The notes under the pieces are model-generated. The model saw only the letters and a program-made list of their open reading frames with translations, did not search any database and had not been told where the DNA came from. Below, piece by piece: positions 19,598-31,720 of a stretch of DNA of 38,656 bases (position 1 is the first letter of the stretch; every line of letters starts with the position of its first letter). The stretch lies in assembly GCA_017552535.1 (NCBI GenBank), contig JAFZPV010000057.1, positions 1 to 38,656 of the forward strand, read 5' to 3'. The position numbers were made by a program, and so were the translations under genes. The stretch is from Clostridia bacterium (GTDB lineage: Bacteria > Bacillota > Clostridia > Christensenellales > Aristaeellaceae).

Positions 19598-20548
19598 TCA
19601 GAAAAGCGCGGCGAGCTCTTCCTCTCCGCCGAGGGCAAGCGCCTTTCGAAGGTCCTCTTTTTCGAAGCGCACGCCCTTCAGCAGGGCCGAGATCCTCTCC
19701 GGCGCTTCCGTGTCCAGGCTGTCGCTGTACACGCGGCAGCTCTGCACCGCGCCATGGGCCACATTCAGGCACAGGCGCACGGTGCCCCAGCTCACACGGC
19801 CTTCACAGGTGATATCGAATTCGGGCGTCTCCCCGGCGAGCCAGTCGCGGGAGGCGTGCTTTTGTCTGAGAATAGACAGGCGCGCGAGCTGATCCGCATT
19901 AAGCGCATACGGCTGCGGGCATCCGTATTCCGTCCCGAAGGCAGCTTTGAGCGCCTCCGCGGTCCTTTCCACCGTGAGCCCCGGCACCAGCTCGTTCAGG
20001 TTTCCCACCCGGGCGCGCACGCTTTTGATGCCCTTGGCCTGCAGCTTCGCTTTCGGGGGCGTCAGGTAGCGGCCAAACACGTCCAGCCGGGAGCTGATCA
20101 GAAGCGTGCCGTGGTGCTGGCAGTTGTGCCCGCGTTTGGCAAAGGCGTTGCCGGAAAACTTGAGGCCGTTCACCGTAAGGTCGTTCCGACCGCTGACCTG
20201 GGCGCGTATGCCCAGCGTTTCGAGCGCCTTCAGGATCACGCCCGTCTGGCGCGCCTCGTCGTAGATATCCTCTGAGGCGATAAACGAATAGTTCAGGTTC
20301 CCCGCGTCGTGATACACCGCTCCCCCGCCCGAAACGCGCCTGACCAGCTGCACGCCGTCCTCGTCCATCCGCTCCAGATCGCACTCCATATAGGGATTCT
20401 GGTTCCGGCCGATGATCACCGCGCCGCTATTGACATACAGGTACAGAACGACGCTGTCCAAAGCCAGCTCGTTCAGAATGAGCTCGTCCCTCGCCAGGTT
20501 CTCGTACGCGTCGCCTGAAGGGGCGATCAGAAAATAGCTAACACTCAT
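19598..20548 (-). CDS. lplA: Lipoate-protein ligase A
   Basis: Ligase that attaches free lipoate to the lysine of lipoyl domains through lipoyl-AMP; 316 residues from the ATG at 20548. Key motifs are VIIGRNQNPY at about 44-53, the lipoate-binding RRVSGGGAVYHD at 70-81, NDLTVNGLKFSGNAF carrying the catalytic Lys, and the C-terminal accessory domain. The frame is open upstream to 20677, but that part covers the probable promoter and two leader hairpins and is not family-like. The ribosome binding site is weak (GATAAG region). It follows the E1-E2-E3 genes on the same strand and would charge the E2 lysine. Placement behind a separate promoter (20668-20696) suggests its own control. Confidence 0.93.
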   Translation of the reverse strand: MSVSYFLIAPSGDAYENLARDELILNELALDSVVLYLYVNSGAVIIGRNQNPYMECDLERMDEDGVQLVRRVSGGGAVYHDAGNLNYSFIASEDIYDEARQTGVILKALETLGIRAQVSGRNDLTVNGLKFSGNAFAKRGHNCQHHGTLLISSRLDVFGRYLTPPKAKLQAKGIKSVRARVGNLNELVPGLTVERTAEALKAAFGTEYGCPQPYALNADQLARLSILRQKHASRDWLAGETPEFDITCEGRVSWGTVRLCLNVAHGAVQSCRVYSDSLDTEAPERISALLKGVRFEKEDLRKALALGGEEELAALF

Positions 20549-20585
20549 CTTATCAACCGTCAAATGCAATAATTCCCTGTCTGTG

Positions 20586-20637
20586 CTGCAGAGGAAGCTT
20601 CCTTGCAGTCTGCGCCACGCAGATACCGTGTATCTGC
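20586..20637 (-). other. Hairpins in the lplA leader
   Basis: Two stems lie in the presumed ~110-base untranslated leader: AGGAAGCTTCCT flanked by CTGC/GCAG arms (about 20586-20608), and GCAGATAC-CGT-GTATCTGC (20619-20637, perfect 8-bp stem). They may affect mRNA stability or translation; no known riboswitch was recognised. Confidence 0.45.
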
Positions 20638-20661
20638 AACGTACCAGCACATGTTCTTTCC

Positions 20662-20742
20662 GTGCAAAGCGTATCACATTTGCACTTTCAGGTCAAGGAG
20701 AAGGTGCAAAATTTGCACCCTATCCGCTCGGCAAGGTGCAAA
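20662..20742 (-). promoter_or_regulatory. lplA promoter with a cluster of GTGCAAA operators
   Basis: On the minus strand TTGACC (20691-20696) and TACGCT (20668-20673) are spaced by 17 bases. GTGCAAA/TTTGCAC sites occur five times: 20662-20668 with 20679-20685 inverted around the -10, 20703-20710 with 20712-20719 as a perfect 8-bp-arm palindrome just upstream of the -35, and 20735-20742. This is a typical layout for a repressor or activator; its identity is unknown. Confidence 0.7.
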
Positions 20743-20785
20743 AAATCATAATTGCGCTGATCAGCCTTGGCTTTTCCGCAAATAT

Positions 20786-20821
20786 GCCCGGAACGGCGCT
20801 TTGATGCGGACCGTTCCGGGC
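20786..20821 (-). terminator. Hairpin after the 2-oxo-acid dehydrogenase E1 gene
   Basis: GCCCGGAACGG (20786-20796) pairs with CCGTTCCGGGC (20811-20821), with an inner CGC/GCG pair. On the minus strand it is followed by ATATTTGCGG, a poor T-run. It lies 42 bases past the E1 stop and probably ends the long operon. Confidence 0.6.
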
Positions 20822-20862
20822 GGAGTTTTCCGCGCCCGAATGGGCGCAGGGAAACAGGTCTG

Positions 20863-23340
20863 TTATACGCCTGCCTTCAGCCTGCGCTCCAGCTCCACGT
20901 CGCTGGCGGCGTTCTGGGGCACGTAGCCGGGAATGGGCACGATGCGGGTGTGGATGGCGTCCAGAATCCAGCTGGGCTGCGGGAAGAAGAACTCGTCGAA
21001 CTCGAAGGGCGGGGTGATCCAGTTGCGGGCGCCCACCACAACGCAGGGAGCGTCGAGATCGTCGAAGCACAGCTCGGTGATGTTGGCGGCCACGTCATTG
21101 AGGAAGGAGCCCCTCTGGCAGGCGTCGGACACCAGCACAACGCGGCCGGTCTTCTTCACGGAAGCGATGATCTTCTCGTAGTTCAGCGGCACCAGAGAGT
21201 GCAGGTTGATGATCTCGGCCTCCATGCCGTACTTTTCCTTCAGCTCGTCGGCGGCAGTCACAGCGCGGTACAGCGCGGCGCCCACGGTGAGGATGGTCAC
21301 GTCCTTGCCCTCGCGGATCAGGTTGGTGTCGCCGATCTCGATCTCGTAGCTCTCCTTGGGCACGCCGCCCTCGTGGAACATTTCGCCCATGTCGTAGATG
21401 CGCTGGCTCTCAAAGAACACCACGGGATCGGTGCCGTTGAGGGCGGTCTGCATCAGGCCCTTGGCCTCCCAGGGGGTGGCGGGGAAGCAGACCTTGAGGC
21501 CCGGGATGTGGGCGCACAGGCTGGTCCAGTCCTGAGAGTGCTGGGCACCGTACTTGGAGCCCACGCTCACGCGCAGGATCACGGGCATCTTGAGGATGCC
21601 GGCGCTCATGGCCTGCCACTTGGACATCTGGTTGAAGATCTCGTCGCCGGCGCGGCCGATGAAGTCCGCGTACATCAGCTCTACCACCGCGCGGCCGCCG
21701 CACATGGCGTAGCCAACGGCGCTGCCTACGATGCAGGCCTCGGAAATGGGGGCGTTGAACAGGCGGCTGTGGGGCAGAACGTCCGGCAGTCCGCGGTACA
21801 CGGCGAAAGCGCCGCCCCAGTCGCGCACGTCTTCACCGTAGGCGACCAGCGTGGAGTCTTCATAGAACTTGTCGATCAGGGGGTCGAAGATGGCGTCGCG
21901 GATGTTGAAGGTCTTCATCTTGGAAACGGCCTTGCCTTCCGCGTCGAAAGCGCTGCGGCTCTTGCCCGCGATCTGCTGTACCCTGGGGCACTCCTCCTTG
22001 GGCGCGAGCACGTTGCTCTTCCCGGTTCCGAAGGCGGGCACCTTCTCGTTGGAGAACATCAGGCGCTCCACCACCATGGGATCGGCCTTCATGTCCGCGT
22101 AGGGGCTGAATTCCTTGTCCGCGGCGTGGCGGCAGATGTTGGTCATGCGCTCTTTGGTCTCGGCCAGGATCTCTTCAAACTTGCTGTCGGGAGCCACGCC
22201 GGCGTCCACGAGGCCCGCGCGATAGGTGATGATGGGATCGACGGCCATCCAGTCGTTGATCTCGTCCTTCTCGCGGTAGGCGTTCTGATCGGATACGCTG
22301 TGGCCGCAGAAGCGGTAGGTGAGGGTATCCAGCAGCACCGGGCCGTCGCCGCTCTTCAGGATCTCGAGCTTGCGCTTCATGGCGTCGATCACCGCCAGGG
22401 GGTTGAAGCCGTCCACGCGCTCGGCGTGCATCTGGTTGGGGGTGAAGCCCGCGCCCAGGCGCGCCAGCATGTCGTAGGCCATGGTCTCGCCCTTGGTCTG
22501 GCCGCCCATGCCGTAGCCGTTGTTGAAGATGTTGAACAGGATCGGAAGCCCGGTGGCGGGTCTGCCGTCGTCGGTCCACAGGGTGTGGAACTGGTCCATG
22601 CAGGCAAAGTTCAGCGCTTCCAGCACGGGGCCGCAGCCCAGGGAGCCGTCGCCGATGTTGCACACCACGAAGCCGTTTTTATCGTTGCACTTTTTGTACA
22701 GCGCGGCGCCCGTGGCGATGGGGGCGGAGCCGCCCACGATGGCGTTGTTGGGATATACGCCGAAGGGCAGGAAGAAGGCGTGCATGCTTCCGCCCAGGCC
22801 CATGTGGAAGCCGGTCTTGCGCGCGAAGATCTCGGAAAGTGTGCCGTAGAGGATAAAGCGGATGGCCAGCTCCTTCACGGAGGAGGTGGGGCCCATCTTT
22901 TCCACGGCGCGCAGCGTCTGGCCGCCCAGGAAGCTCTCCATGATCTTCAGCAGTTCTTCGTCCGACAGCTTCTGGATGGAGGACAGCGCCTTGGCCAGGA
23001 TCTCGGAGTGGCTGCGGTGGGAGCCGAACTGGTAGTCGTTGGGGGTCATCAGGTAGGCCTGGCCGACGCAGGCGGCCTCCTGGCCCACGGACAGGTGCGC
23101 GGGGCCGGGATAGGTGGTCTCCACGCCGTTGTAGACTTTCTGGGTCTTGATGGAGGTGAGCATGCTCTCGAACTCGCGCAGGATGGTGATATCGCGGTAG
23201 ATGCGGATCAGGTCCTCGTCCTTGAAGTTCTGGCGCTCTTCGGCAACGGTCTTGTTGTAGGAGTTGACGTCGATGTCGGTAAAGTGGATCGTGCTTTTGG
23301 CGCGGATCTCATTTGGACCGTAGTATAAAGACTTAGGCAT
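20863..23340 (-). CDS. 2-oxo-acid/acetoin dehydrogenase E1, alpha and beta subunits fused
   Basis: Thiamine-diphosphate-dependent E1 of 825 residues in which the alpha subunit (about 1-470) is joined to the beta subunit (about 474-825). The alpha half has the TPP/Mg motif GDG at 230-232 with Asn-Asn at 273-274. The gap between them is about 14 residues longer than usual because of FHTLWTDDGRPATG at 251-264. The beta half has YGEDVRDWGG (catalytic Glu503), PISEACIVGSAVGYAMCGGR and GSKYGAQHSQDW. E1 decarboxylates a 2-oxo acid (or cleaves acetoin) and passes the acyl group to lipoyl-E2. It is last in the E2-E3-E1 order and has AAAGGGG before the ATG. The acyl substrate cannot be determined. Fused E1 forms exist in other phyla, usually shorter (about 650-700). 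Confidence 0.9.
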   Translation of the reverse strand: MPKSLYYGPNEIRAKSTIHFTDIDVNSYNKTVAEERQNFKDEDLIRIYRDITILREFESMLTSIKTQKVYNGVETTYPGPAHLSVGQEAACVGQAYLMTPNDYQFGSHRSHSEILAKALSSIQKLSDEELLKIMESFLGGQTLRAVEKMGPTSSVKELAIRFILYGTLSEIFARKTGFHMGLGGSMHAFFLPFGVYPNNAIVGGSAPIATGAALYKKCNDKNGFVVCNIGDGSLGCGPVLEALNFACMDQFHTLWTDDGRPATGLPILFNIFNNGYGMGGQTKGETMAYDMLARLGAGFTPNQMHAERVDGFNPLAVIDAMKRKLEILKSGDGPVLLDTLTYRFCGHSVSDQNAYREKDEINDWMAVDPIITYRAGLVDAGVAPDSKFEEILAETKERMTNICRHAADKEFSPYADMKADPMVVERLMFSNEKVPAFGTGKSNVLAPKEECPRVQQIAGKSRSAFDAEGKAVSKMKTFNIRDAIFDPLIDKFYEDSTLVAYGEDVRDWGGAFAVYRGLPDVLPHSRLFNAPISEACIVGSAVGYAMCGGRAVVELMYADFIGRAGDEIFNQMSKWQAMSAGILKMPVILRVSVGSKYGAQHSQDWTSLCAHIPGLKVCFPATPWEAKGLMQTALNGTDPVVFFESQRIYDMGEMFHEGGVPKESYEIEIGDTNLIREGKDVTILTVGAALYRAVTAADELKEKYGMEAEIINLHSLVPLNYEKIIASVKKTGRVVLVSDACQRGSFLNDVAANITELCFDDLDAPCVVVGARNWITPPFEFDEFFFPQPSWILDAIHTRIVPIPGYVPQNAASDVELERRLKAGV

Positions 23341-23361
23341 AACAATTTCCCCTTTCCTTGA

Positions 23362-24729
23362 TTACAGCTTGAATATGGCTTCGCGGATGACTTCGCACAC
23401 GGTGGGATGCGGGAACACGAACTTCTTGAGCCTCTCGGGCGGCAGCTCGGTGTCCACCATCATGGCGGCGGACAGGATCATCTCGGAGGCGTAGGAGCCC
23501 ACCAGGTGCACGCCCACCACGCGGTTTTTGTCCTTGTCCAGCACGATCTTGCAGAAGCCCTTGCCGCCGTCCACTTCGGCCACGTAGCGGCCCGCATACA
23601 TCATGGGCACGTTGACTTCCTTTACGCTCAGGCCCGCCTTCTCGGCAGCTTCCTTCGTGTAGCCCACGCTGGCCACCTCGGGATCGGTGTAGATGACCGA
23701 GGGAATGGAATTGTAGTTGATCCTGTCTTTTTTGCCCAGGATGTTGTTTACGGCCACCTCAGCCTCGCGGTAGGCGGTGTGAGCCAGCATGATCTTGCCG
23801 TTGCAGTCGCCCACGGCCCAGACGTTGGGAACGCTGGTGGCCAGGGTGTCGTCGGTGACGATGGCGCCGCGGTTCATTTCGATGTTCAGGCTTTCCAGGC
23901 CCACGCCCTTGGTGGCGGCCCGGCGGCCTACGGACAGGAGCACCTTGTCGCAGGGGCACTCGTGCTGGCCGTCCTTGTCTTCATACACCACCGCGCCGGG
24001 CTTGACGGAAAGCACCTTGGCGGAGAGCTTGAAGATCATGCCGCGCTTTTCGTACTCAGCCTCAAGCACCTTGCAGATGTCGCTGTCGGTGGGGCCGGCG
24101 ATCTTGGGCATCATTTCGATCACGGTGACCTGCACGCCCACGGAGGCGAAGTAGCATGCCATCTCCAGGCCGATCACGCCGCCGCCGATGACCGCCAGGG
24201 TCTTGGGCAGCTGGGTCTCGTCCAGGATCTCGCGATTGGTCATCACGAAGCCGCTCTCCACGCCTTCCTTCACACCGGGGATGGGCGGCACCACGGCTTC
24301 GGAGCCGCAGGCCAGGATCAGCCGGTCGCTGAAGTAGTCCTTGCCTTCGGCGCTGACTTTGAACTTGCCGTCCTGCTTGCCGTTCACCACGGCAGAAGCG
24401 CTGACCACGTTCACCTTGTTGGCGCTCATGGTCATGCCCACGCCGCTTACCAGCGTCTTGACCACCTTGGCCTTGCGCCTGATCACCTGCGCATGGTCGA
24501 AGGTCACGTTTTCGCTCTTGACGCCAAAGTTCTCGCTCTCGGTGGCGTGGCGGTAGAGCTTGGCGGAGTTGAGCAGGGTCTTGGTGGGGATGCAGCCTTC
24601 GTTCAGGCACACGCCGCCCAGCGCCCTCTTCTCGAACAGGCAGACCTTCAGCCCGCCCTGCGCGGCGCGCTCCGCGGCGAGATATCCGCCGGGGCCGCCG
24701 CCGATCACGATGAGATCAAACAAATCCAT
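23362..24729 (-). CDS. lpdA: Dihydrolipoyl dehydrogenase (E3)
   Basis: Flavoprotein disulfide reductase of 455 residues that reoxidises dihydrolipoyl-E2 and reduces NAD+. It has the FAD motif IGGGPGGYLAAERAA (9-23), the redox pair GGVCLNEGCIPTK (Cys41 and Cys46), the NAD-binding VIGGGVIGLEMACYFA, and the C-terminal HPTVCE with catalytic His441 and Glu446. All catalytic residues are present and the length is normal. It lies 21 bases from both the E2 and E1 genes with AGGAGA before the ATG, so it is dedicated to this complex. It carries no N-terminal lipoyl domain. Confidence 0.96.
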   Translation of the reverse strand: MDLFDLIVIGGGPGGYLAAERAAQGGLKVCLFEKRALGGVCLNEGCIPTKTLLNSAKLYRHATESENFGVKSENVTFDHAQVIRRKAKVVKTLVSGVGMTMSANKVNVVSASAVVNGKQDGKFKVSAEGKDYFSDRLILACGSEAVVPPIPGVKEGVESGFVMTNREILDETQLPKTLAVIGGGVIGLEMACYFASVGVQVTVIEMMPKIAGPTDSDICKVLEAEYEKRGMIFKLSAKVLSVKPGAVVYEDKDGQHECPCDKVLLSVGRRAATKGVGLESLNIEMNRGAIVTDDTLATSVPNVWAVGDCNGKIMLAHTAYREAEVAVNNILGKKDRINYNSIPSVIYTDPEVASVGYTKEAAEKAGLSVKEVNVPMMYAGRYVAEVDGGKGFCKIVLDKDKNRVVGVHLVGSYASEMILSAAMMVDTELPPERLKKFVFPHPTVCEVIREAIFKL

Positions 24730-24750
24730 ATCGCTATCTCCTAAAGCAGA

Positions 24751-26016
24751 TTATTTTGCCAGAAGCAGGGTGAACTGTTCCAGGTTCTTGCTCAGCGCCT
24801 GCACGAACTTGCTGGCGGGAGAGCCGTCCACCGCGCGGTGATCGTAGGTGAGGGAAAGGCCCATGGCGGGATAGAGTTTGATCTGGCCGTTCTCCTCGCG
24901 CACCCTCTGGGTGATGCCGCACACGCCCAGGATGGCGGTCTGCGGGGGATTGATGACGGGGGTGAACATTTCAACGCCCGTGCTGCCCAGGTTGGACACG
25001 GTGAAGGAGCCGCCCGTGAGCAGGTCGGGGCTGATGGCGCCGGAGCGCGCCGCCTCGGCCAGGGTCTTCACTTCCCTGCTGATCTCCAGCAGGCTCTTGG
25101 TGTCGGCGTTGAAGATCGTGGGCACCATGAGGCCTCTGGGGGTATCCACCGCCACGCCCAGGTTGACGTGCCTGAAGCGGCGGATGGTGTTTTCGTCGAT
25201 CATATTGGCGTTCAGGTCCGGGAAGTCCAAAAGCGTACGGCTCACGGCGTAAAGCACCATGTCGCCCAGGGTGATGCCGCCCACGTCGCCGCCAGCGGCC
25301 TTGCACTGCTTGCGGAAGGCCTGGATGGAAGTGGCGTCGAAGGTGTGGTGGTTGGTGAGCTGGGCCATGGAGTGCAGGCTGTTCATCATGCTCTTGGCGA
25401 TCGCCTTGCGGATGCCGGAGAACTTCACGTCCTCGTATTCCTGCGCGGGCGCGGCGGCAGTGGGCTGAGCAGCGGCGGCTTCTGCCTTCGGCGCAGCCTC
25501 GGCAGCCGGCATGCCGGTCTCCATGAGCTTGCGCACGTCGCGCTCGATCACACGGCCGTTGGGGCCGGTGGGCTCGGCGTACGCGGGATCGACGCCCGCC
25601 TTTTCGGCGAGATTGCGCGCCCTGGGAGAGACCTTCAGCGCGCCGTCTTCGCTTTTCGTGCTGGGGGCAGCCGCCTTGGGCGCTTCCTTGGCCGCTTCGG
25701 GCTTGGGCGCTTCTTCCGCCTTGGGCGCTTCCGCCGCGGGGGCCGCGCCGCCGGGGATCAGGTCGTCAAATTTTTCGCCCTTGGCGCCGATGGCGCACAC
25801 GTTGGTAAAGCAGGGCACCTCGTCTCCGTCCTTGAAGAAGATGGCCAGGATCTCGCCCTCTTCCGTGCTTTCGCACTCGAACGAAGCCTTGTCGGTCTCG
25901 TAGGTGTAGAGGATGTCCCCCACCTTTACCTGGTCGCCTACTTGCTTGAGCCACTTGCCGATGATGCAGGATTCAACCGTGATGCCCGCCTTCGGCATGA
26001 TCACCGCTTTTGCCAT
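24751..26016 (-). CDS. 2-oxo-acid dehydrogenase E2 (dihydrolipoamide acyltransferase)
   Basis: Core acyltransferase of the complex, 421 residues, with one lipoyl domain (1-80, lipoyl-Lys43 in ETDKAS). An Ala/Pro-rich linker (about 91-125) is followed by a peripheral-subunit-binding domain (128-165, SPRARNLAEKAGVDP and GPNGRVIERDV), a second linker, and the catalytic domain (197-421). The last carries the active-site YDHRAVDGS with His393 and Asp397. It transfers the acyl group from E1-loaded lipoate to CoA; LplA encoded next to E1 would lipoylate it. The gene starts 3 bases after the zinc dehydrogenase stop, with GGAGGAAGAG as ribosome binding site, tightly tying the complex to the sugar enzymes upstream. 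Confidence 0.95.
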   Translation of the reverse strand: MAKAVIMPKAGITVESCIIGKWLKQVGDQVKVGDILYTYETDKASFECESTEEGEILAIFFKDGDEVPCFTNVCAIGAKGEKFDDLIPGGAAPAAEAPKAEEAPKPEAAKEAPKAAAPSTKSEDGALKVSPRARNLAEKAGVDPAYAEPTGPNGRVIERDVRKLMETGMPAAEAAPKAEAAAAQPTAAAPAQEYEDVKFSGIRKAIAKSMMNSLHSMAQLTNHHTFDATSIQAFRKQCKAAGGDVGGITLGDMVLYAVSRTLLDFPDLNANMIDENTIRRFRHVNLGVAVDTPRGLMVPTIFNADTKSLLEISREVKTLAEAARSGAISPDLLTGGSFTVSNLGSTGVEMFTPVINPPQTAILGVCGITQRVREENGQIKLYPAMGLSLTYDHRAVDGSPASKFVQALSKNLEQFTLLLAK

Positions 26017-26019
26017 TTT

Positions 26020-27288
26020 TTACTCTTCCTCCTTCGCGAGCGTACTGAGCAGATAGTCTTCGGCCTCTTTGTTCCACAGGCCGTTGGTTTTGGCGGTCAG
26101 CTCCGCCAGGTGCGCGTACATGGGATCGGTCTTGCCCTTTTCTTCAAAGTCCGCAATGGCGGTCAGGGGCATGTTGATGTGGGTGTAGATCAGCTTTTTG
26201 CCGCCCGGGATCTTGGGCAGGTTCAGCGTGGTGTCGATCACCGCGTCGATGCCGCCGATATGGGTCACCAGCGCCGCGGGCGTGAGCTTGCCCTCGCCCA
26301 TCATCTTCAGGCACTCCGCCATATCGTCGGTGTTGCCGCCGGAGGTGCCGCAGATGTGGGTGGAGCCGTAATGCACGTTGTAGAAGTTCAGTTTGGCGTA
26401 AAAGTCCTTGCGGGCGGGGCCGGCAAAGAAATTCAGGCAGCCGTCCGTGCCCAGGATGGCGTCGGCCTGCTCCACCACGGGGGTGACGGGCGCAAAGCAC
26501 ACCACGTCGTCGTAGCCGGTGCCGCCCGTGAGCTCGCGCAGCGCGGCCACCGGGTCTTCAAACTTGCCGGTGTTCACGTAGTGCAGTTCCACGCCCTGCT
26601 CTTTGGCCTTCTCCACGGTGTGGATGGACGCCGCCCGGTCCAGGCGGGACTGGTCGATATCCGTGATCACCAGAAGCGAAGGACGGCGCTCGGTGTGCAG
26701 GATGTAGTCGATGGCGGCCAGGCCCATGGGGCCGACGGACGCCAGCAGGGCCATCTTGCCCTTTTCACGGATGCCCATGAAGTGCTCGTAGCAGCCGTTC
26801 CTGGTGTGGTACATGGCCTTGAAGGTGCCCGCCACGCAGGACAGCGGCTCAGACAGGGACGCGCCGAAATAGTTGTCGCCTTTGTACTCCAGCAGGCAGC
26901 CGGTCTCCATGAACTCCCGCGGGATCACGATGTAGGTGGCGTCGCCGCCGATGGTGCGGTAGCTGTAGCCGGGGGCCCACATGGTGCCCTTGTAGTTGAT
27001 GTTGGGCTGGATGGCGAAGCGCATGCCCACATGGTATTTGTCCTGCCACTCGCTGCCCACCTTCAGGATCTCGCCGCAGAACTCGTGGCCCATGATCGTG
27101 GGGTTCGTGGCCACGTCCTTGGGCACGCGCTTGTGCTCGGCGCCCTGCTCGGCGCACTTGTAGGTGGACATGCAGATGGAGTCGCAGATGACCTTGGCCA
27201 GGATCTCGCCGTCCTTGATCTCGGGCAGCTCGAAGGATTCCAGCCGCAGGTCTTCCTTTCCGTAGAGTCTTACCGCCTTGGTTTTCAT
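26020..27288 (-). CDS. Zinc-dependent dehydrogenase, L-sorbose-1-phosphate reductase-like
   Basis: Medium-chain dehydrogenase/reductase of 422 residues, longer than typical alcohol dehydrogenases (about 350) and matching the SorE-type sorbose-1-phosphate reductase group. Zinc-site residues are visible in CDSICMSTYKCAEQ (about 35-48) and GHEFCGEIL. The nucleotide-binding region follows at LLASVGPMGLAAIDY, although the usual GxGxxG is degenerate. These enzymes reduce or oxidise phosphorylated ketoses and polyols. PHP ends 1 base upstream and E2 starts 3 bases downstream, so translation is coupled on both sides. Substrate is inferred from family resemblance only; no sorbose PTS genes are in the window. 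Confidence 0.8.
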   Translation of the reverse strand: MKTKAVRLYGKEDLRLESFELPEIKDGEILAKVICDSICMSTYKCAEQGAEHKRVPKDVATNPTIMGHEFCGEILKVGSEWQDKYHVGMRFAIQPNINYKGTMWAPGYSYRTIGGDATYIVIPREFMETGCLLEYKGDNYFGASLSEPLSCVAGTFKAMYHTRNGCYEHFMGIREKGKMALLASVGPMGLAAIDYILHTERRPSLLVITDIDQSRLDRAASIHTVEKAKEQGVELHYVNTGKFEDPVAALRELTGGTGYDDVVCFAPVTPVVEQADAILGTDGCLNFFAGPARKDFYAKLNFYNVHYGSTHICGTSGGNTDDMAECLKMMGEGKLTPAALVTHIGGIDAVIDTTLNLPKIPGGKKLIYTHINMPLTAIADFEEKGKTDPMYAHLAELTAKTNGLWNKEAEDYLLSTLAKEEE

Positions 27289-27289
27289 G

Positions 27290-28459
27290 TCAATCCTCCC
27301 TGATCTCCTGTTTTACCAGTTTCCACGCGGCGTCCACTAAATGATGAAACATGGGCTCCGCCAGTTCCTTGCATATGAAGCTCTGCCGGGAGGAGTTGAT
27401 GTCCTCGCCGGAGATCTGCGTAAAGCCGTATTCGCCGCACAGGCCCATCAGCCTTTCCAGCTGGGCGCGGGTATTGCGGCTGGGCATGAAGGTGACGCCC
27501 TTCACCCCCGCTTTCCTGAGGTAGGAAAGCAGCTCTTCCAGATAATCGTCCTCAAACTTCTGGGCCTTTTTGTCGCCCGTCACGCTGTCGCCCACGTCGC
27601 CCAGGTACGCGTAGCACAGGGTGGCGCCGATGTCGTTTGCAAAAGCGACCGCCTCGGAGAGCGTCATCATCTCCCGGTCCGCGGGGATATAGGTGCGCTG
27701 GTTCAGCTCGCTCTTCATCACGCCCAGCAGGTCGTAGGCGAAGTGCTCGCTTTTTATATCCTTCAGGCGCTGCTGTATCTTTTCGGAGGGCGTGATCTTC
27801 AGTTCGTCCGTGAGGAAGGAAAGCACGTTCTGCGCGCCGACTTTTTCGATGAGCCTGAGGCTCAGCGCGTACAGAAGATGCCTCTCGGTCACGGTGCCGC
27901 CCTGCTCGTACATGCTCAGGGGAAGCACGTCCCGGTCAAAATCCAGGCTGAAGCCGTAGGGGCGCATGACAGAGTTGATCTTATCGGTCATCAGGCGGTT
28001 GCGGTCGTTTCTGAGCGCCGCCAGGGCGTGCAGCTTGCTTTGCGCCTTTTCAAAGCTTTCACAGGGCACGGAGTGGAAAGCCATGTACGCCGCACCGGCC
28101 TGGTCGGGATGGTTGGTGCGCCGGTTTTCAAAGGGCGTGCCCTTCAGGGATACGCGGGCCTCGAAGCCGCAGGTGGTGCCCATGCCCGCGATTTTTCCCG
28201 CCTCGCGGAATTCCTCCGCTCCCGCGATGGAATCGTGGTCCATGATGCCGCAGGTGAGCAGGCCCTCCGCCCGGGCGAAGTACACCGCCGCCGTAGGCGA
28301 ATAGGGCGAGAAGGAATAGGTGGTATGGATGTGGTTGTTGGCGAACTCCGGCCGGGCAACGGGCTTTTCGGTCTCGGCAGAGATGATCTTCCTCAGGTTG
28401 CCGAGCCGCTCCTTGGCCGAAGGCGCGTTCAAAAGCGAAAGGATTTCCTGTTTGTTCAT
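27290..28459 (-). CDS. PHP-domain protein (putative phosphoesterase)
   Basis: A 389-residue protein with an N-terminal PHP domain. Metal ligands are seen in NNHIHTTYSFSPYSP (about 41-55) and IMDHDSIAG (about 72-80), and a later GEDINS near the C-terminus provides another acidic ligand. PHP enzymes use two or three metals to hydrolyse phosphoesters. Similar PHP proteins occur beside SDR, aldolase and sugar kinase genes in Clostridia, so dephosphorylation of a sugar phosphate is likely but not proven. It starts with AAAGGG before the ATG, after a 112-base gap that holds a heptad-repeat element, and abuts the zinc dehydrogenase. Confidence 0.83.
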   Translation of the reverse strand: MNKQEILSLLNAPSAKERLGNLRKIISAETEKPVARPEFANNHIHTTYSFSPYSPTAAVYFARAEGLLTCGIMDHDSIAGAEEFREAGKIAGMGTTCGFEARVSLKGTPFENRRTNHPDQAGAAYMAFHSVPCESFEKAQSKLHALAALRNDRNRLMTDKINSVMRPYGFSLDFDRDVLPLSMYEQGGTVTERHLLYALSLRLIEKVGAQNVLSFLTDELKITPSEKIQQRLKDIKSEHFAYDLLGVMKSELNQRTYIPADREMMTLSEAVAFANDIGATLCYAYLGDVGDSVTGDKKAQKFEDDYLEELLSYLRKAGVKGVTFMPSRNTRAQLERLMGLCGEYGFTQISGEDINSSRQSFICKELAEPMFHHLVDAAWKLVKQEIRED

Positions 28460-28487
28460 ATATGATCCCTTTCAGAAAAGGATTGCT

Positions 28488-28576
28488 GGAGAGTGCGGAG
28501 TGCAGAGTTTTAATGGTTAGTGTGCACCAAAAAGCATTCAAAACTCCCGACTCCTAACTCCCGACTCCAAACTAAT
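28488..28576. repeat. Heptad-repeat element with inverted ends, short copy
   Basis: Three 7-base units ending GAGT (28488-28508) and four or five inverted units ending ACTC (28539-28576) surround an inner segment with TTAATGGTTAG and ATTCAAAAC. The inner segment and heptads match the right part of the element at 31461-31720. It lies between the SDR stop codon (28572-28574, inside the last unit) and the PHP start, within one operon. It could fold as a hairpin in the mRNA. Confidence 0.7.
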
Positions 28577-29444
28577 TCAGCATCACCTGGCCGCCGGTCA
28601 CGGGGATGGCCTGGCCGGTCTCGTACTTCTGCTCCACGCAGTAGGTCAGGGCCAGGGCCACGTCGCTGGGCAGGCAGCCGCGCTTGATCAGGGACTTGGA
28701 AAGGTAGTAGGCCTTCACGTCCTCCACGGTCTTGGCTCCGGGCACCTTGCCCGCGTTCAGATACTGCACGAACAGGCCCTTCACCGGATCGCTCCACAGC
28801 GGCCCGTCGTAGTAGTTGCCGGGGCAGATGGAATTGACCTTGATGTTGAAAGGCGCCAGCTCCAGCGCAAAGGACTGGGTGAGGCCGATGCCGCCGAACT
28901 TGCCGCCCGCGTAGGCGAAGTTGTTCTTGCTGCCCTCCAGGCCGCTCTTGGAGTTGATCTGGATGATGTCGAAAAACAGGCTGCTGTCCGCCTCGAACTG
29001 CGCCTTCATGATGCCGGAAGCGTATTTGGCGCAGAGGAAATAGCCGTTGTAATTGATTTTGGTCACGAAGTCGAACTTGGCGGGGATCATTTCGTCCAGG
29101 CTGCCCGCGATGGCGACGCCCGCATTGGCCACCAGGATGTCCAGGCCGCCGAAGACCTCTACGGTCTTGACCACCATCTGCTCCACGCTCTCGGGATCGC
29201 TCACGTCCACCTTGGCCCAGGTGGCGTGCTCGCCGAATTCCTCGGCCACCTTGGCGGCCAGCTGGTCGTTCAGGTCCGCAACCACGATGGAAGCGCCTTC
29301 CTTCAGCATCTCCTTGGCGATGCCGTAGCCGAAACCCTGGGCCGCGCCCGTGACGATGGCGATCTTTCCGGCCAGGCGTCCGCTGGTCGCCGGGCGGACG
29401 TGCACGTTCTTTGCCGCAAGTACCTTTGCTTCTTCGAAAGTCAT
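28572..29444 (-). CDS. SDR oxidoreductase, sorbitol-6-phosphate dehydrogenase / RhaW-like
   Basis: Classical short-chain dehydrogenase of 290 residues with TGAAQGFGYGIA at about 32-43, NAGVAIAGS, catalytic Tyr/Lys in NFAYAGGKFG, and a C-terminal TGGQVMLN. The end pattern (VPGAKTVEDVKAYYLSK, YETGQAIPVTGGQ) resembles sorbitol-6-phosphate 2-dehydrogenases and the SDR half of class-II-aldolase/SDR fusions of the RhaEW (YuxG) type. It likely oxidises or reduces a polyol or ketose phosphate, or the aldehyde from the aldolase, with NAD(H). It follows the aldolase by 30 bases, GGAGG before the ATG. The aldolase-SDR pair looks like a split version of that fusion. Confidence 0.85.
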   Translation of the reverse strand: MTFEEAKVLAAKNVHVRPATSGRLAGKIAIVTGAAQGFGYGIAKEMLKEGASIVVADLNDQLAAKVAEEFGEHATWAKVDVSDPESVEQMVVKTVEVFGGLDILVANAGVAIAGSLDEMIPAKFDFVTKINYNGYFLCAKYASGIMKAQFEADSSLFFDIIQINSKSGLEGSKNNFAYAGGKFGGIGLTQSFALELAPFNIKVNSICPGNYYDGPLWSDPVKGLFVQYLNAGKVPGAKTVEDVKAYYLSKSLIKRGCLPSDVALALTYCVEQKYETGQAIPVTGGQVMLN

Positions 29445-29474
29445 TTTTCTGCCTCCGTTATATTGGTTCCCGGT

Positions 29475-30524
29475 TTATTTGGTTACCGATTTGCGGTAGC
29501 TTTCCACTTCCCAGCCCACAATGAAGTCCACCAGCTCCTGGTCCATGGGCTTCGCGCCGCCGAAAGCCTCGGCGTACACGACGATCTTCATGGCGTCCTT
29601 CACCAGCGTCATGCAGTTGTCCGCGGCCTTCTGGGTGTCGCCCAGGGCGTAGATGCCCTTGCCGCGCATCACGATCACGTTGGCGTCGATGCTGTTCAGG
29701 CAGTTTTCGCAGTTGGCGAATTTCACGCGGGGGCCGCAGTACACGATCTGATCGGGGTTGAAGGGCTTCATGATGGGCGCGGCAGCCTCGGGGCTGGCGG
29801 CAAAGCGCAGCGCGGTGGGGCTGGCGTTGAAATTGACGTACTGTTTGCCGCTGAAACGGCGGATCTTATCCTCGTAGCCGGGCTCCTCGGCGTCGGATTC
29901 CACGTCCGGCTTTTCCTTCACGCAGGCGTTCAGGGCGTTGAGCATGCCGTTCAGGTGCACGGCCAGGTCTTCCACGGTGTCCGCGCCGAAGAACACGCCG
30001 TGGTTCTCCAGCAGCACGGTCTTGATGGGCCGGGCAGAAGCGTCGAACACGTCCTTCATGATCTTGGCCAGCGTATAGCCCGGCTTGCAGGCGGGAACCC
30101 ACACCACGCTGTCGCCGAACAGGCGGCGGCACTCGCTTTCGCCGTTTTGAGAGCAGGTGAGGCCGTTCACCAGCGCCGGATGCAGGTGCAGAACGAACCT
30201 CTGAGGGAACAGCGCGTGCAGAAGCGCCTCCACGCTGGGCCGCTTGCTCTCCTCGCCGGGCAGCTTGGCCAGGGCGCAGTCGTGCACGAATTTCGCCTCC
30301 CGGGCGGCGTCGTCGGCGGGGTATTCCTCGTCAAGGATGCCCAGGAGCCTGCGCATGTCCATGCCCACGAAGGTATCCGTCACGGCGTCCTTGAGGGCGG
30401 TGCCGGAGCCCTTTACGTACATCAGGCCGTTTTCCTTCATGGAGGTGTTGCCGCCTCCGCAGGTGACCAGTTCGGCGTTGGCGCCGTAGAGCCTTGAAAA
30501 ATAAATGAGCGGTGAAAGATTCAT
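29475..30524 (-). CDS. Class II aldolase/adducin-family protein
   Basis: A 349-residue zinc aldolase-type protein, larger than simple fuculose-phosphate aldolases (about 215). Conserved parts are TCGGGNTSMK, KGSGTALKDA, the metal-binding VLHLHPALVNG, and LLENHGVFFGAD with a further His; a C-terminal extension follows. It would cleave a ketose (phosphate) to DHAP or pyruvate-type products plus an aldehyde, by family knowledge. The ATG at 30524 overlaps the DeoR stop as ATGA and has GGGGAGG upstream; the open frame further up lies within deoR and is not real. It resembles the aldolase half of RhaEW-type fusions. Confidence 0.85.
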   Translation of the reverse strand: MNLSPLIYFSRLYGANAELVTCGGGNTSMKENGLMYVKGSGTALKDAVTDTFVGMDMRRLLGILDEEYPADDAAREAKFVHDCALAKLPGEESKRPSVEALLHALFPQRFVLHLHPALVNGLTCSQNGESECRRLFGDSVVWVPACKPGYTLAKIMKDVFDASARPIKTVLLENHGVFFGADTVEDLAVHLNGMLNALNACVKEKPDVESDAEEPGYEDKIRRFSGKQYVNFNASPTALRFAASPEAAAPIMKPFNPDQIVYCGPRVKFANCENCLNSIDANVIVMRGKGIYALGDTQKAADNCMTLVKDAMKIVVYAEAFGGAKPMDQELVDFIVGWEVESYRKSVTK

Positions 30525-31300
30525 GTTCTTTTCCTCCCCTCGGCGCAGATGAGTCTTACGCCGCATTTGTCGAGAGCCTCGCGCCACTCGGAGCCCGGCT
30601 CGGTGTCCGTTACCAGGTAGTCGATCTGATTGAGTCCGCCGATGCCCGCGAAGGCCACCCGGCCGAACTTGCCGTGATCCGCGGCCAGGATCACCTGCTT
30701 GGCCGAGGCCATCATGGCGCGCTTGATCAGCGCCGTGTCCTCGTGCCGGTCGGTGAAGCCCGCCTCCATGTCGAGGCTGTCGCAGGATATGATCGCCTTG
30801 TCTACATGGTAGGAGCGCACCATGCTCTCCGCCTGATGCCCGGCGAAGGACGGCGCGCTGGGACGCTTGAGCCCGCCTGTGCACAGCACCGTCCAGCCCT
30901 GCGCGTTAGCCAGCTCGCTTACGATCTCCATGGAATTGGTGATCACGGTAATGTCCCTCAGATGCCTGAGAGCGGAGGAAACAAAAAACGAGGTCGAACT
31001 TTCATCCAGCATGATATACTCGCCGTCCGAGATGAGTTCCGCCACGGCCCGCGCAATGGCGGTCTTGGCGTTCACATCCGCGCGTTTGCGGATATCATAC
31101 GGGGTCTCCTTGCGTTCGTCCTCGTTGTACAGCGCGCCTCCGTAGGTGCGGCGCGCGATGCCGTCCTTTTCCAGCCGTTCCAGGTCGCGCCGGACCGTCT
31201 CCTCCGAGACGCCCAGGACGCGGCTGAGCTCGCTTACAGACACGCGCTTTTCGGTCTTCAGCGTTTCCGCCACGCGCTGCCTGCGCTCCAGTGCGAGCAT
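30521..31300 (-). CDS. DeoR-family transcriptional regulator
   Basis: A 259-residue repressor with an N-terminal DeoR helix-turn-helix (VSVSELSRVLGVSEETVRRD, about 20-39, then RRTYGGAL) and a DeoR C-terminal sensor domain of the ribose-5-phosphate-isomerase-like fold (VITNSMEIV, AADHGKFGRVAF). Such proteins usually sense a sugar phosphate made by the pathway they control. It is first in the long minus-strand operon, overlapping the aldolase by 4 bases, which strongly suggests it regulates that operon and itself. The ribosome binding site is GGGGGAGGTGG. Candidate operators are direct repeats at 31350-31378. Confidence 0.92.
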   Translation of the reverse strand: MLALERRQRVAETLKTEKRVSVSELSRVLGVSEETVRRDLERLEKDGIARRTYGGALYNEDERKETPYDIRKRADVNAKTAIARAVAELISDGEYIMLDESSTSFFVSSALRHLRDITVITNSMEIVSELANAQGWTVLCTGGLKRPSAPSFAGHQAESMVRSYHVDKAIISCDSLDMEAGFTDRHEDTALIKRAMMASAKQVILAADHGKFGRVAFAGIGGLNQIDYLVTDTEPGSEWREALDKCGVRLICAEGRKRT

Positions 31301-31460: not shown

Positions 31461-31720
31461 GGAGTGTGGAGTCGGGAGTTAGGAGGGAGGAGTTTATATA
31501 CTTTGCTGGCGCAGCAAAGTATTGTTTCCCGCTGCTACCTGAAGGTGATATTATAAAAGTAAAGAAGAATCCCCCGGTAATGGGCTGTTTAGCAGCCCCA
31601 ACAAAGTCTGGATTCAGGAGTTAATGGTTGGATGCGTCAGCTACAGTATTCAAAACTCCTCACTCCTAACTCCTCACTCCTACCTCCTCGCTCCTAACTC
31701 CTCGCTCCTCACTCCTCACT
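31461..31720. repeat. Heptad-repeat element with inverted ends, long copy
   Basis: Five units of GGAGNNN (31461-31495) and nine inverted units of the form NCTCCTN (31655-31717) flank about 160 bases. The inside holds a perfect 11-bp hairpin (ATACTTTGCTG-GCG-CAGCAAAGTAT, 31499-31523), a GGGCTG/CAGCCC hairpin (about 31583-31599), and the sequence TTAATGGTT..ATTCAAAAC shared with 28488-28576. Just outside, at 31437-31459, is another 10-bp hairpin of similar make (TTGCGGCTGC/GCAGCCGCAA). With the DeoR leader this fills the 465-base gap between the DeoR and CbiC-like genes; no gene is seen in it. Confidence 0.75.

Follow-up and report, generated by a model that had tools for sequence, protein, structure and literature searches.

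Why does a complete lipoyl-based dehydrogenase complex lie among sugar-catabolic genes in a Clostridia bacterium, and what would it act on? The question is raised by one gene run in the window, as we call the whole stretch of 38,656 nucleotides analysed. An earlier note had listed eight genes there, and all of them are open reading frames on the minus strand with the families as named (ORF list and profile searches, the PHP match lying just under the Pfam cut-off). A ninth, for a lipoate-protein ligase (LplA), had been missed and follows the fused E1 in the same run. In the direction of transcription the features are:

31372-31343, minus strand: promoter-like site before DeoR (consensus match only)
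30521..31300, minus strand: DeoR-family regulator, 259 aa, the operon's first gene (PF00455 1e-48, PF08220 1.9e-16)
29475..30524, minus strand: class II aldolase/epimerase domain protein, RhaE-like (PF00596 9.4e-17; start at 30524 inferred from relatives)
28572..29444, minus strand: SDR dehydrogenase (nearest curated model PRK12384, sorbitol-6-phosphate dehydrogenase, 224 bits against a cut-off of 307)
28460..28571, no strand assigned: SDR-PHP gap containing a GGAGTTAGGAGT-type repeat (sequence inspection)
27290..28459, minus strand: PHP phosphoesterase-fold protein (Pfam PHP 24.5 bits against a cut-off of 26.4)
26020..27288, minus strand: MDR of the SorE/YggP type, putative ketose-1-phosphate reductase (identity 51% to E. 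coli SorE, 53% to E. coli YggP)
24751..26016, minus strand: E2 with lipoyl domain, E3-binding domain and acyltransferase (PF00198 3e-73, PF00364, PF02817)
23362..24729, minus strand: E3 dihydrolipoyl dehydrogenase (TIGR01350 475.8 bits against a cut-off of 408.8)
20863..23340, minus strand: fused alpha/beta E1, TPP enzyme, 825 aa (PF00676, PF02779, PF02780)
20549..20862, minus strand: E1-lplA gap, which contains five TTTGCAC/GTGCAAA heptamers and may control lplA (sequence inspection)
19598..20548, minus strand: lipoate-protein ligase LplA, the ninth gene (TIGR00545 323 bits against a cut-off of 280; start inferred from relatives)

The DeoR and aldolase genes share 4 bases when the ATG at 30524, picked through alignment with the relatives L110 and L111, is taken as the aldolase start; by ORF coordinates the aldolase-SDR, PHP-MDR, MDR-E2, E2-E3 and E3-E1 gaps measure 30, 1, 3, 21 and 21 bases. 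The one larger junction, between SDR and PHP, holds the repeat reported for it and is 112 bases long, not 113; a stretch upstream of DeoR is similar to that repeat. In the window lplA begins 314 bases after E1, and in L110 and L111 its first base is also the final one of the E1 stop codon.

From the 3-base gap between MDR and E2 it had been argued that the complex is no chance neighbour, and related genomes bear this out. Two sheep-gut MAGs (L110 and L111) carry DeoR, aldolase (Ald2), SDR, PHP, MDR, E2, E3, E1 and LplA, all nine in the same order, and a third locus (L121, on a contig shared with G185 and L064) keeps that order without PHP, its E1 being read as two overlapping frames. Among 200 genomes of the order, SDR is present in 25/26 genomes with PHP and MDR in 24/26, while 27 of the 29 MDR genomes have E1 (each Fisher P < 1e-20), shared descent accounting for part of this co-occurrence. 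Matches were accepted at E values of 1e-60 for MDR, 1e-40 for SDR and 1e-15 for Ald2; for PHP, 50 of 76 matching genomes were dropped as having weak matches only (E above 1e-10), and for E1, 3 of 38 were dropped because their best match was unfused (G058, G022 and G152), four distant fused E1s (43-52%) being kept. A first labelling of loci told SDR from Ald2 by length alone, and the counts given do not rest on it. By hand count, MDR and fused E1 lie within 10 kb of each other in 7 of the 27 genomes of the order that have both, against about 0.25 genomes expected under random placement (Poisson P ~9e-9, assuming 2.2 Mb genomes and ignoring shared ancestry). Chance neighbourhood is thus ruled out by the order kept in the three relatives together with the co-occurrence.

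The gene order is kept in near relatives. The earlier note had taken separate halves in most related genomes as a sign against the linkage, and this is partly what we found: in 20/27 genomes MDR and E1 do not lie within 10 kb of each other, and the link there is the co-occurrence. In 14 of these 20, a DeoR gene either adjoins MDR or is separated from it by one gene (L086, L087, L090, L092-L100 except second copies, L103 and L107; hand reading, some loci ending at contig ends), and the stand-alone complex has an adjoining DeoR gene in 1/20 (L055; again with some loci ending at contig ends). Both the separation and the DeoR gene beside MDR favour a rather improbable explanation. On that view the cell would make an ordinary dehydrogenase for pyruvate, or for mixed 2-oxo acids, alongside its deoxyhexose enzymes to keep redox in balance, and the MDR would be an NADH-recycling side reductase (e.g., of DHAP or ketose-1-phosphate to glycerol or hexitol phosphate). 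GlpABC-looking genes adjoin MDR in L124, L127 and L174 (judged by eye) and PFK does so in L139, both also in its favour, but SDR and PHP co-occur near-perfectly with MDR, and the alphaproteobacterial E1 relatives described below also speak against it.

Wider sampling was made through named MDR loci, the best 80 of at least 561 and hence biased to close relatives. Complex genes are found in 41 of these 80, which their record titles place in five phyla (mostly MAGs, Bacillota being the remainder), and 17 of the 80 lack SDR, PHP and complex genes altogether. A lipoyl complex tied to a sugar pathway, which had been called unusual, may fairly be so termed for gut Clostridia, but the module occurs in at least five phyla on those same record titles.

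The neighbours in relatives indicate the sugar. An L-rhamnose or L-fucose isomerase gene accompanies the complex genes in 11 of the best 80 of at least 561 named MDR loci, that is, in 11/41 of those bearing the complex; eight RhaA from these loci align to the RhaA of the source genome at 47-55%, and three further FucI align at 63-72% to that of an uncultured Draconibacterium (L176). In the latter, E2-E3-E1-PHP-fused aldolase/SDR-MDR is followed by fucI and fucK (548 bits, cut-off 471), and Draconibacterium mangrovi (L185) has the same run from E2 to MDR. In G129, a gene resembling that for rhamnulokinase (TIGR02627 402 bits, cut-off 528) precedes SDR-PHP-MDR-E2-E3-E1, with an L-rhamnose isomerase on the same contig. 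Because RhaA, rhamnulokinase-like, FucI and FucK genes adjoin the module in relatives, the sugar class can be narrowed to 6-deoxyhexoses, and the substrates are probably L-rhamnose and L-fucose. The source genome carries RhaA and a FucI-family gene; none of three scanned FGGY kinase hits out of six in this MAG, which is 77% complete, reached the rhamnulokinase or fuculokinase cut-off, and RhaA is loosely linked, being missing from 6/26 PHP genomes. Gene content, gene order, co-occurrence and neighbours are direct observations; with a probability of roughly 0.9, we regard the operon as one copy of a conserved, widely distributed module for the breakdown of 6-deoxyhexoses (L-rhamnose, L-fucose and possibly further ones).

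How the module would work is suggested by its two dehydrogenases. In L-sorbose catabolism a pair of the SorE/SorD kind (ketose-1-phosphate reductase and sorbitol-6-phosphate dehydrogenase) moves the keto group, and the sor genes are found together. Judged by sequence, the MDR is a SorE/YggP-type dehydrogenase (49% identical to Klebsiella SorE, thus 49-51% to SorE) and a putative ketose-1-phosphate reductase, and the SDR in the same operon is nearest PRK12384 (224.2 bits, and 304.4 bits for the G070 SDR, both under the cut-off). Since these are the pair type of L-sorbose catabolism, a keto-group shift by MDR and SDR can be proposed. The module differs from the sorbose pathway in that its substrate is expected to lack the C6 hydroxyl, in that the operon has no PTS genes, and in that the SDR encoded in the true E. 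coli sor operon falls under a different model, PRK06171, and shares just 29% identity with that of the window. The best NCBIfam match of the DeoR protein is AgaR (202 bits, under the cut-off of 260). The same two dehydrogenases bear on classical acetoin/2,3-butanediol catabolism, in which both would be butanediol dehydrogenases and E1 would split acetoin into acetyl-CoA and acetaldehyde. The SDR reaches 139 bits with the meso-butanediol dehydrogenase model (cut-off 270) and a genuine aco cluster, carried by a Paracoccus plasmid, encodes a 2,3-butanediol dehydrogenase as well as an SDR, but that locus lacks aldolase and PHP, the MDR is only ~24% identical to annotated butanediol dehydrogenases against 49-53% to SorE/YggP, and the relatives' neighbours are deoxyhexose genes, which together make this reading very improbable despite the E1 motif discussed next.

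HR instead of YR in the TPP segment of E1 alpha was compared as a possible mark of acetoin dehydrogenase. It was found in 18/18 fused E1 rows printed and in 3/3 Aco rows, YR occupying the two PDH rows, the one BCKDH row and human PDH; HR is also present in one non-fused Azospirillum row of unknown function, so the motif is not exclusive. The complex resembles AcoABCL in combining a TPP E1 with lipoyl E2 and E3, and differs from it in the fusion of E1 alpha and beta, in a segment of ~45 residues after HR that is missing from the Aco rows and human PDH, in its sugar neighbours, and in its E2, the sole full-length PF00198 match of the source genome, which is of the ordinary PDH/SucB type and not AcoC (lipoyl plus alpha/beta hydrolase). 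In the tree, the fused E1s form their own branch (support 100/100), which, with branches as long as these, is not placed nearer to acetoin dehydrogenase than to PDH. Relatives of the fused E1 at 51-53% in Rhizobium, Agrobacterium and Pleomorphomonas adjoin split AcoC-like E2 genes. The same loci also encode a regulator, sugar-binding or of DeoR type, along with kinases or transporters for sugars, and their annotation shows no SorE-like MDR in the vicinity; such ties to sugar uptake or phosphorylation argue against a complex made merely for redox balance. For pRL8, genes induced specifically by pea have been reported, and the fused E1 goes unmentioned in the part of that source considered here (PMC3333776).

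With the pyruvate dehydrogenase complex the module shares the set of E1, E2, E3 and LplA, but E1 and E2 score under the equivalog cut-offs (E1: TIGR03182 197/394 and PRK11892 230/454, both models being of single subunits; E2: TIGR01349 285/445), and the source genome also has a pyruvate:ferredoxin oxidoreductase (PFOR). Both facts weaken the idea that the complex serves general pyruvate oxidation and nothing else. Because of PFOR and of the acetoin-dehydrogenase-type E2 partners of the fused-E1 relatives, acetoin-type compounds have at least as strong a claim as pyruvate to be the substrate; the 2-oxo acid that had also been suggested is a candidate only. The product is probably acetyl-CoA.

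We tentatively prefer, at somewhat less than even odds, a mechanism in which MDR and SDR carry the keto function of a 6-deoxyketose-1-phosphate over to its methyl end, after which E1/E2/E3 cleave the product to acetyl-CoA and a tetrose-4-phosphate. An isomerase and a kinase encoded elsewhere would supply rhamnulose-1-P or fuculose-1-P. We infer that the SorE-like MDR would then reduce the C2 keto group to a 1-deoxyhexitol-6-phosphate (numbered from the methyl end), that the sorbitol-6-phosphate-dehydrogenase-like SDR would oxidise the hydroxyl next to the methyl to a 1-deoxyketose-6-phosphate, CH3-CO-CHOH-R, an analogue of acetoin, and that the TPP-lipoyl E1/E2/E3 would cut C2-C3 in the fashion of acetoin dehydrogenase, releasing acetyl-CoA, NADH and tetrose-4-phosphate. 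In a stereochemical bookkeeping that reproduced the L-sorbose route as a control, reduction on the SorE face would give D-threose-4-P from both rhamnose and fucose; the class II aldolase, acting as a 4-epimerase on the 1-deoxyketose-phosphate, could yield D-erythrose-4-P from both sugars. No threose-4-P isomerase was found in the operon. LplA would lipoylate E2, DeoR would sense a sugar phosphate, and PHP may be a phosphatase for a phosphorylated intermediate: the protein has the PHP fold with its metal motif, and the fold search matched phosphoesterases with no hint of substrate.

The aldolase brings in the main rival, in which it splits rhamnulose-1-P or fuculose-1-P into DHAP and L-lactaldehyde, the SDR (as RhaW) forms L-lactate, the MDR makes pyruvate and the complex, as pyruvate dehydrogenase, makes acetyl-CoA. 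The gene order suits such a linear pathway, and the catalytic residues are intact, E113, H127, H129 and H189 (numbered from 30566) being invariant in 22/22 aligned rows; by FucA/RhaD, we take E113 to be the catalytic Glu and the three His to bind the metal. As in the RhaEW L-rhamnose pathway (Bacillus subtilis YuxG, Chloroflexus), a class II aldolase goes with an SDR, fused in many relatives of the module (19 of the best 80 of at least 561 named MDR loci), and rhamnose isomerase and kinase lie near the module in relatives. According to PMC3870299, RhaEW gives DHAP and lactate in vitro and some RhaR regulons contain lactate dehydrogenases; neither 'dehydrogenase complex' nor 'PHP' occurs in its main text. 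The module, unlike RhaEW, adds PHP, the SorE-like MDR and E1-E2-E3-LplA, and three fused relatives (L027, L185 and L128) match the RhaEW model TIGR02632 at 263, 256 and 245 bits, far under its cut-off of 567.75, which is out of reach for the split genes of the window.

Furthermore, nothing indicates lactate specificity in the MDR, whose family is one of hexitol-phosphate dehydrogenases, PFOR is already present, and the PDH scores fall short as given above. Fifteen loci (among the best 80 of at least 561) combine PHP with MDR and lack complex genes. Seven of them have SDR-PHP-MDR or PHP-MDR, six with a separate SDR; searched with five class II aldolase probes, these seven (L115, L117, L131, L149, L152, L172 and L177, some ending at contig ends) yielded no similar gene, which weighs against the lactaldehyde route, with the aldolase possibly elsewhere in those genomes. 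Absence of the aldolase failed, however, as a separator of the two routes at the genome level: close Ald2 occurs in 15 genomes, all among the 26 PHP genomes, and 9/9 MDR/SDR/PHP genomes without it keep some class II aldolase (a few ORFs judged by eye), both of which favour lactaldehyde. On balance we consider the lactaldehyde route unlikely, if a serious contender.

For the carbonyl shift followed by lipoyl cleavage we count the co-occurrence, the deoxyhexose genes at the module, the MDR and SDR families, the AcoC-like neighbours, HR, PFOR and the seven aldolase-free loci. Against it we count the likeness of aldolase and SDR to RhaEW, whose fusion implies that both domains act in one series of steps, and also the differing sor-operon SDR, the non-exclusive HR, the E1 tree, the PDH/SucB-type E2, a PHP without an assigned step, the lack of a threose-4-P isomerase gene in the operon, the scanned FGGY kinases below cut-off, the lone MDR loci, the loose RhaA link and the share of the co-occurrence that comes from common descent.

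Our literature searches found no description of this gene set, in agreement with the earlier note, and a set recurring across several phyla appears to represent an undescribed sugar pathway. It is possible, and we put it forward with some doubt, that this is a second general 6-deoxyhexose route, in which a SorE/SorD-like carbonyl flip is followed by an acetoin-dehydrogenase-like complex that takes the two terminal carbons of a 1-deoxyketose phosphate as acetyl-CoA and leaves tetrose phosphate. If so, aldol cleavage, lactaldehyde and 1,2-propanediol would be bypassed, and the fused E1 family, whose carriers range from gut anaerobes to rhizobia, would form a class of 1-deoxyketose(-phosphate) dehydrogenase complexes. 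Automatic annotation would call the complex a pyruvate or general alpha-keto acid type, leaving many genomes with a mis-named catabolic complex. Rhamnose and fucose are common in the plant and host glycans of the gut, where the handling of the methyl end by anaerobes sets the output of propanediol, propionate, lactate or acetyl-CoA, and lipoate supply may limit the use of deoxy sugars.

The window makes up contig C9 of a genome of 62 contigs, 77% complete, and family profile matches identify the following genes in it:

31300-30521, minus strand, DeoR
30524-29475, minus strand, class II aldolase (Ald2)
29444-28572, minus strand, SDR
28459-27290, minus strand, PHP
27288-26020, minus strand, MDR
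26016-24751, minus strand, E2
24729-23362, minus strand, E3
23340-20863, minus strand, fused alpha/beta E1
20548-19598, minus strand, lipoate-protein ligase (lplA)

The run of eight genes on one strand, from DeoR to the fused E1, described in the earlier note is present; the ligase, a ninth gene, had been overlooked there. The operon's E2 is the sole full-length 2-oxo-acid acyltransferase in this 77% complete genome. Of the seven TTTGCAC/GTGCAAA heptamers in the window, five lie in the gap between E1 and lplA (20549-20862) and form a cluster that is possibly a lipoate-responsive operator; none of the upstream regions of 11 other lplA genes, from named loci, contains any. Intergenic repeats with GGAGTTAGGAGT-type arms, alike in both places, occur inside the operon (28460-28571) and upstream of it (31480-31720).

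Named genomes were scanned with an MDR alignment, and the best 80 of 561 confirmed loci were analysed. Two Clostridia MAGs from sheep rumen and rectum (L110 and L111) carry all nine genes in the order of the window, with the lplA start lying on the E1 stop codon, and a third locus (L121, its contig identical with that of G185/L064) retains all but PHP, its E1 running over two overlapping frames. Within these best 80 of 561 loci, MDR was accompanied by SDR in 53, PHP in 42, E1 in 40 and any complex gene in 41, and by no SDR, PHP or complex gene in 17; by record title, complex genes were present in 20/43 loci of Bacillota, 10/20 of Bacteroidota, 6/10 of Spirochaetota, 4/5 of Lentisphaerota, 1/1 of Abditibacteriota and 0/1 of Planctomycetota.

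Six proteins were each searched in one common set of 200 genomes of the order, and after cuts on match strength PHP was retained in 26, MDR in 29, fused E1 in 35, SDR in 25, Ald2 in 15 and L-rhamnose isomerase (RhaA) in 69. PHP shared 25 genomes with SDR, 24 with MDR and 22 with E1, MDR shared 27 with E1 and 23 with SDR, and all 15 Ald2 genomes were nested in those with PHP. The link of RhaA to PHP is loose (20 of 26 PHP genomes have it, and 49 RhaA genomes lack PHP). Among the 27 genomes that have MDR as well as E1, 20 carry the two on different contigs or separated by over 10 kb; reading these 20 by hand, we found a DeoR gene immediately beside MDR, or one gene further off, in 14 and adjoining the complex in one (L055). 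The earlier note had held that its linkage would fail if most relatives carried the sugar half and the complex half separately: they do so in position, but not in partnership, since 27 of 29 MDR genomes have E1, and in one of the two others (G060, locus L091) E2 and E3 adjoin MDR at a contig edge.

As for the sugar, one genome of the order (G129) has a row of class II aldolase, rhamnulokinase-like gene (TIGR02627, 402 bits against a cut-off of 528), SDR, PHP, MDR, E2, E3 and E1, upstream of which stand a sugar ABC transporter, recognised by eye, and an L-rhamnose isomerase (PF06134). An uncultured Draconibacterium (L176) has E2-E3-E1-PHP-fused aldolase/SDR-MDR followed by L-fucose isomerase (FucI) and L-fuculokinase (548 bits against 471). 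Complex genes occur with a RhaA or FucI cluster member in 11 of the best 80 of 561 loci, and these members align to Pfam-confirmed RhaA or FucI. The window's genome has RhaA on contig C52 and a FucI-family gene on C49; of the six FGGY_N matches in this 77% complete genome three were scanned, and none reached a rhamnulokinase or fuculokinase cut-off. At one of its loci (L194, 2643-5468) the L-rhamnose isomerase gene lies downstream of a GH38 alpha-mannosidase-like gene.

In the E1 tree a branch (100/100) sets the 49 fused E1s apart, at a long distance from the acetoin, pyruvate and branched-chain rows; the placement favours none of these three as nearest. The TPP segment reads HR in all 18 fused rows printed, in 3/3 acetoin rows and in one Azospirillum row of unknown function, and YR in two PDH rows and one BCKDH row. 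Beyond this segment, about 45 residues of the fused family have no counterpart in the human PDH and acetoin rows. Beside relatives on alphaproteobacterial plasmids (51-53%) are genes for a small lipoyl protein and for an alpha/beta hydrolase; in the Rhizobium pair both score best, among curated models, with acetoin dehydrogenase E2 (63 and 154 bits, respectively, against a cut-off of 307). Further neighbours in Rhizobium are PfkB kinase, RbsD/FucU and sugar ABC genes; Agrobacterium likewise has sugar ABC genes there, along with mannitol dehydrogenase and lipA, and Pleomorphomonas has an annotated xylulose kinase. Judging by these genes, what the fused-E1 settings have in common is a predicted sugar or sugar-derived substrate and putative acetoin-type chemistry. 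The plasmid module (L190 14001-19649, L195 9001-13494, L196 8001-12534) comprises fused E1, small lipoyl protein, AcoC-like hydrolase and a sugar-binding or DeoR-type regulator, with differing sugar kinases and transporters. A second fused-E1 subclade (L073-L076) lies in a stretch without PHP or a close MDR, near SorC/DeoR-type regulators (tested for L074 and L076), xylulokinase (L075) and, by eye, sugar transporter genes.

Acting together on L-sorbose-1-P, SorE and sorbitol-6-phosphate dehydrogenase transfer its keto group to the opposite end, and the sor genes are grouped together in genome data. By analogy, the SorE-like MDR and the sorbitol-6-phosphate-dehydrogenase-like SDR would convert a 6-deoxyketose-1-P into a 1-deoxyketose-6-P, an acetoin analogue, which the TPP-lipoyl complex could cleave to acetyl-CoA and tetrose-4-P. 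We give this reading, drawn from sequence, a probability of roughly 40%. Stereochemical bookkeeping, which as a control yielded fructose-6-P from L-sorbose, takes both rhamnulose and fuculose to D-threose-4-P by the same face and to D-erythrose-4-P if C4 is epimerised first; the class II aldolase superfamily includes such an epimerisation (AraD). MDR, SDR, E1-E3, LplA and possibly the aldolase would thereby have roles, and PHP would be left without a step. The RhaEW-like aldolase/SDR fusion found in 19 of the best 80 of 561 loci leans instead to a route from lactaldehyde through lactate and pyruvate to acetyl-CoA, which draws on in vitro work on RhaEW (PMC3870299) and would have the MDR act on lactate. 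We regard this route as somewhat less likely than the shift of the keto group. In seven named loci that hold both PHP and MDR, a search with five probes turned up no similar class II aldolase, which leans towards the shift.

MDR and PHP also have other neighbours. A diverged MDR paralogue (49-51%) behind a DeoR gene (L108 4071-9447, L109 8213-13538) adjoins, by eye, a glycyl radical enzyme and its activase; three clostridial GlpABC-like genes, by eye, directly follow MDR at L124, L127 and L174; and at L031 and L035, whose genomes have MDR and E1 elsewhere, PHP and Ald2 adjoin an iron-type alcohol dehydrogenase (FucO-like by eye), with several microcompartment-shell-sized genes nearby. Every part of the module is a member of a known family. 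No description of the gene combination and its spread was found in the openly licensed literature, and the module is possibly a new pathway.
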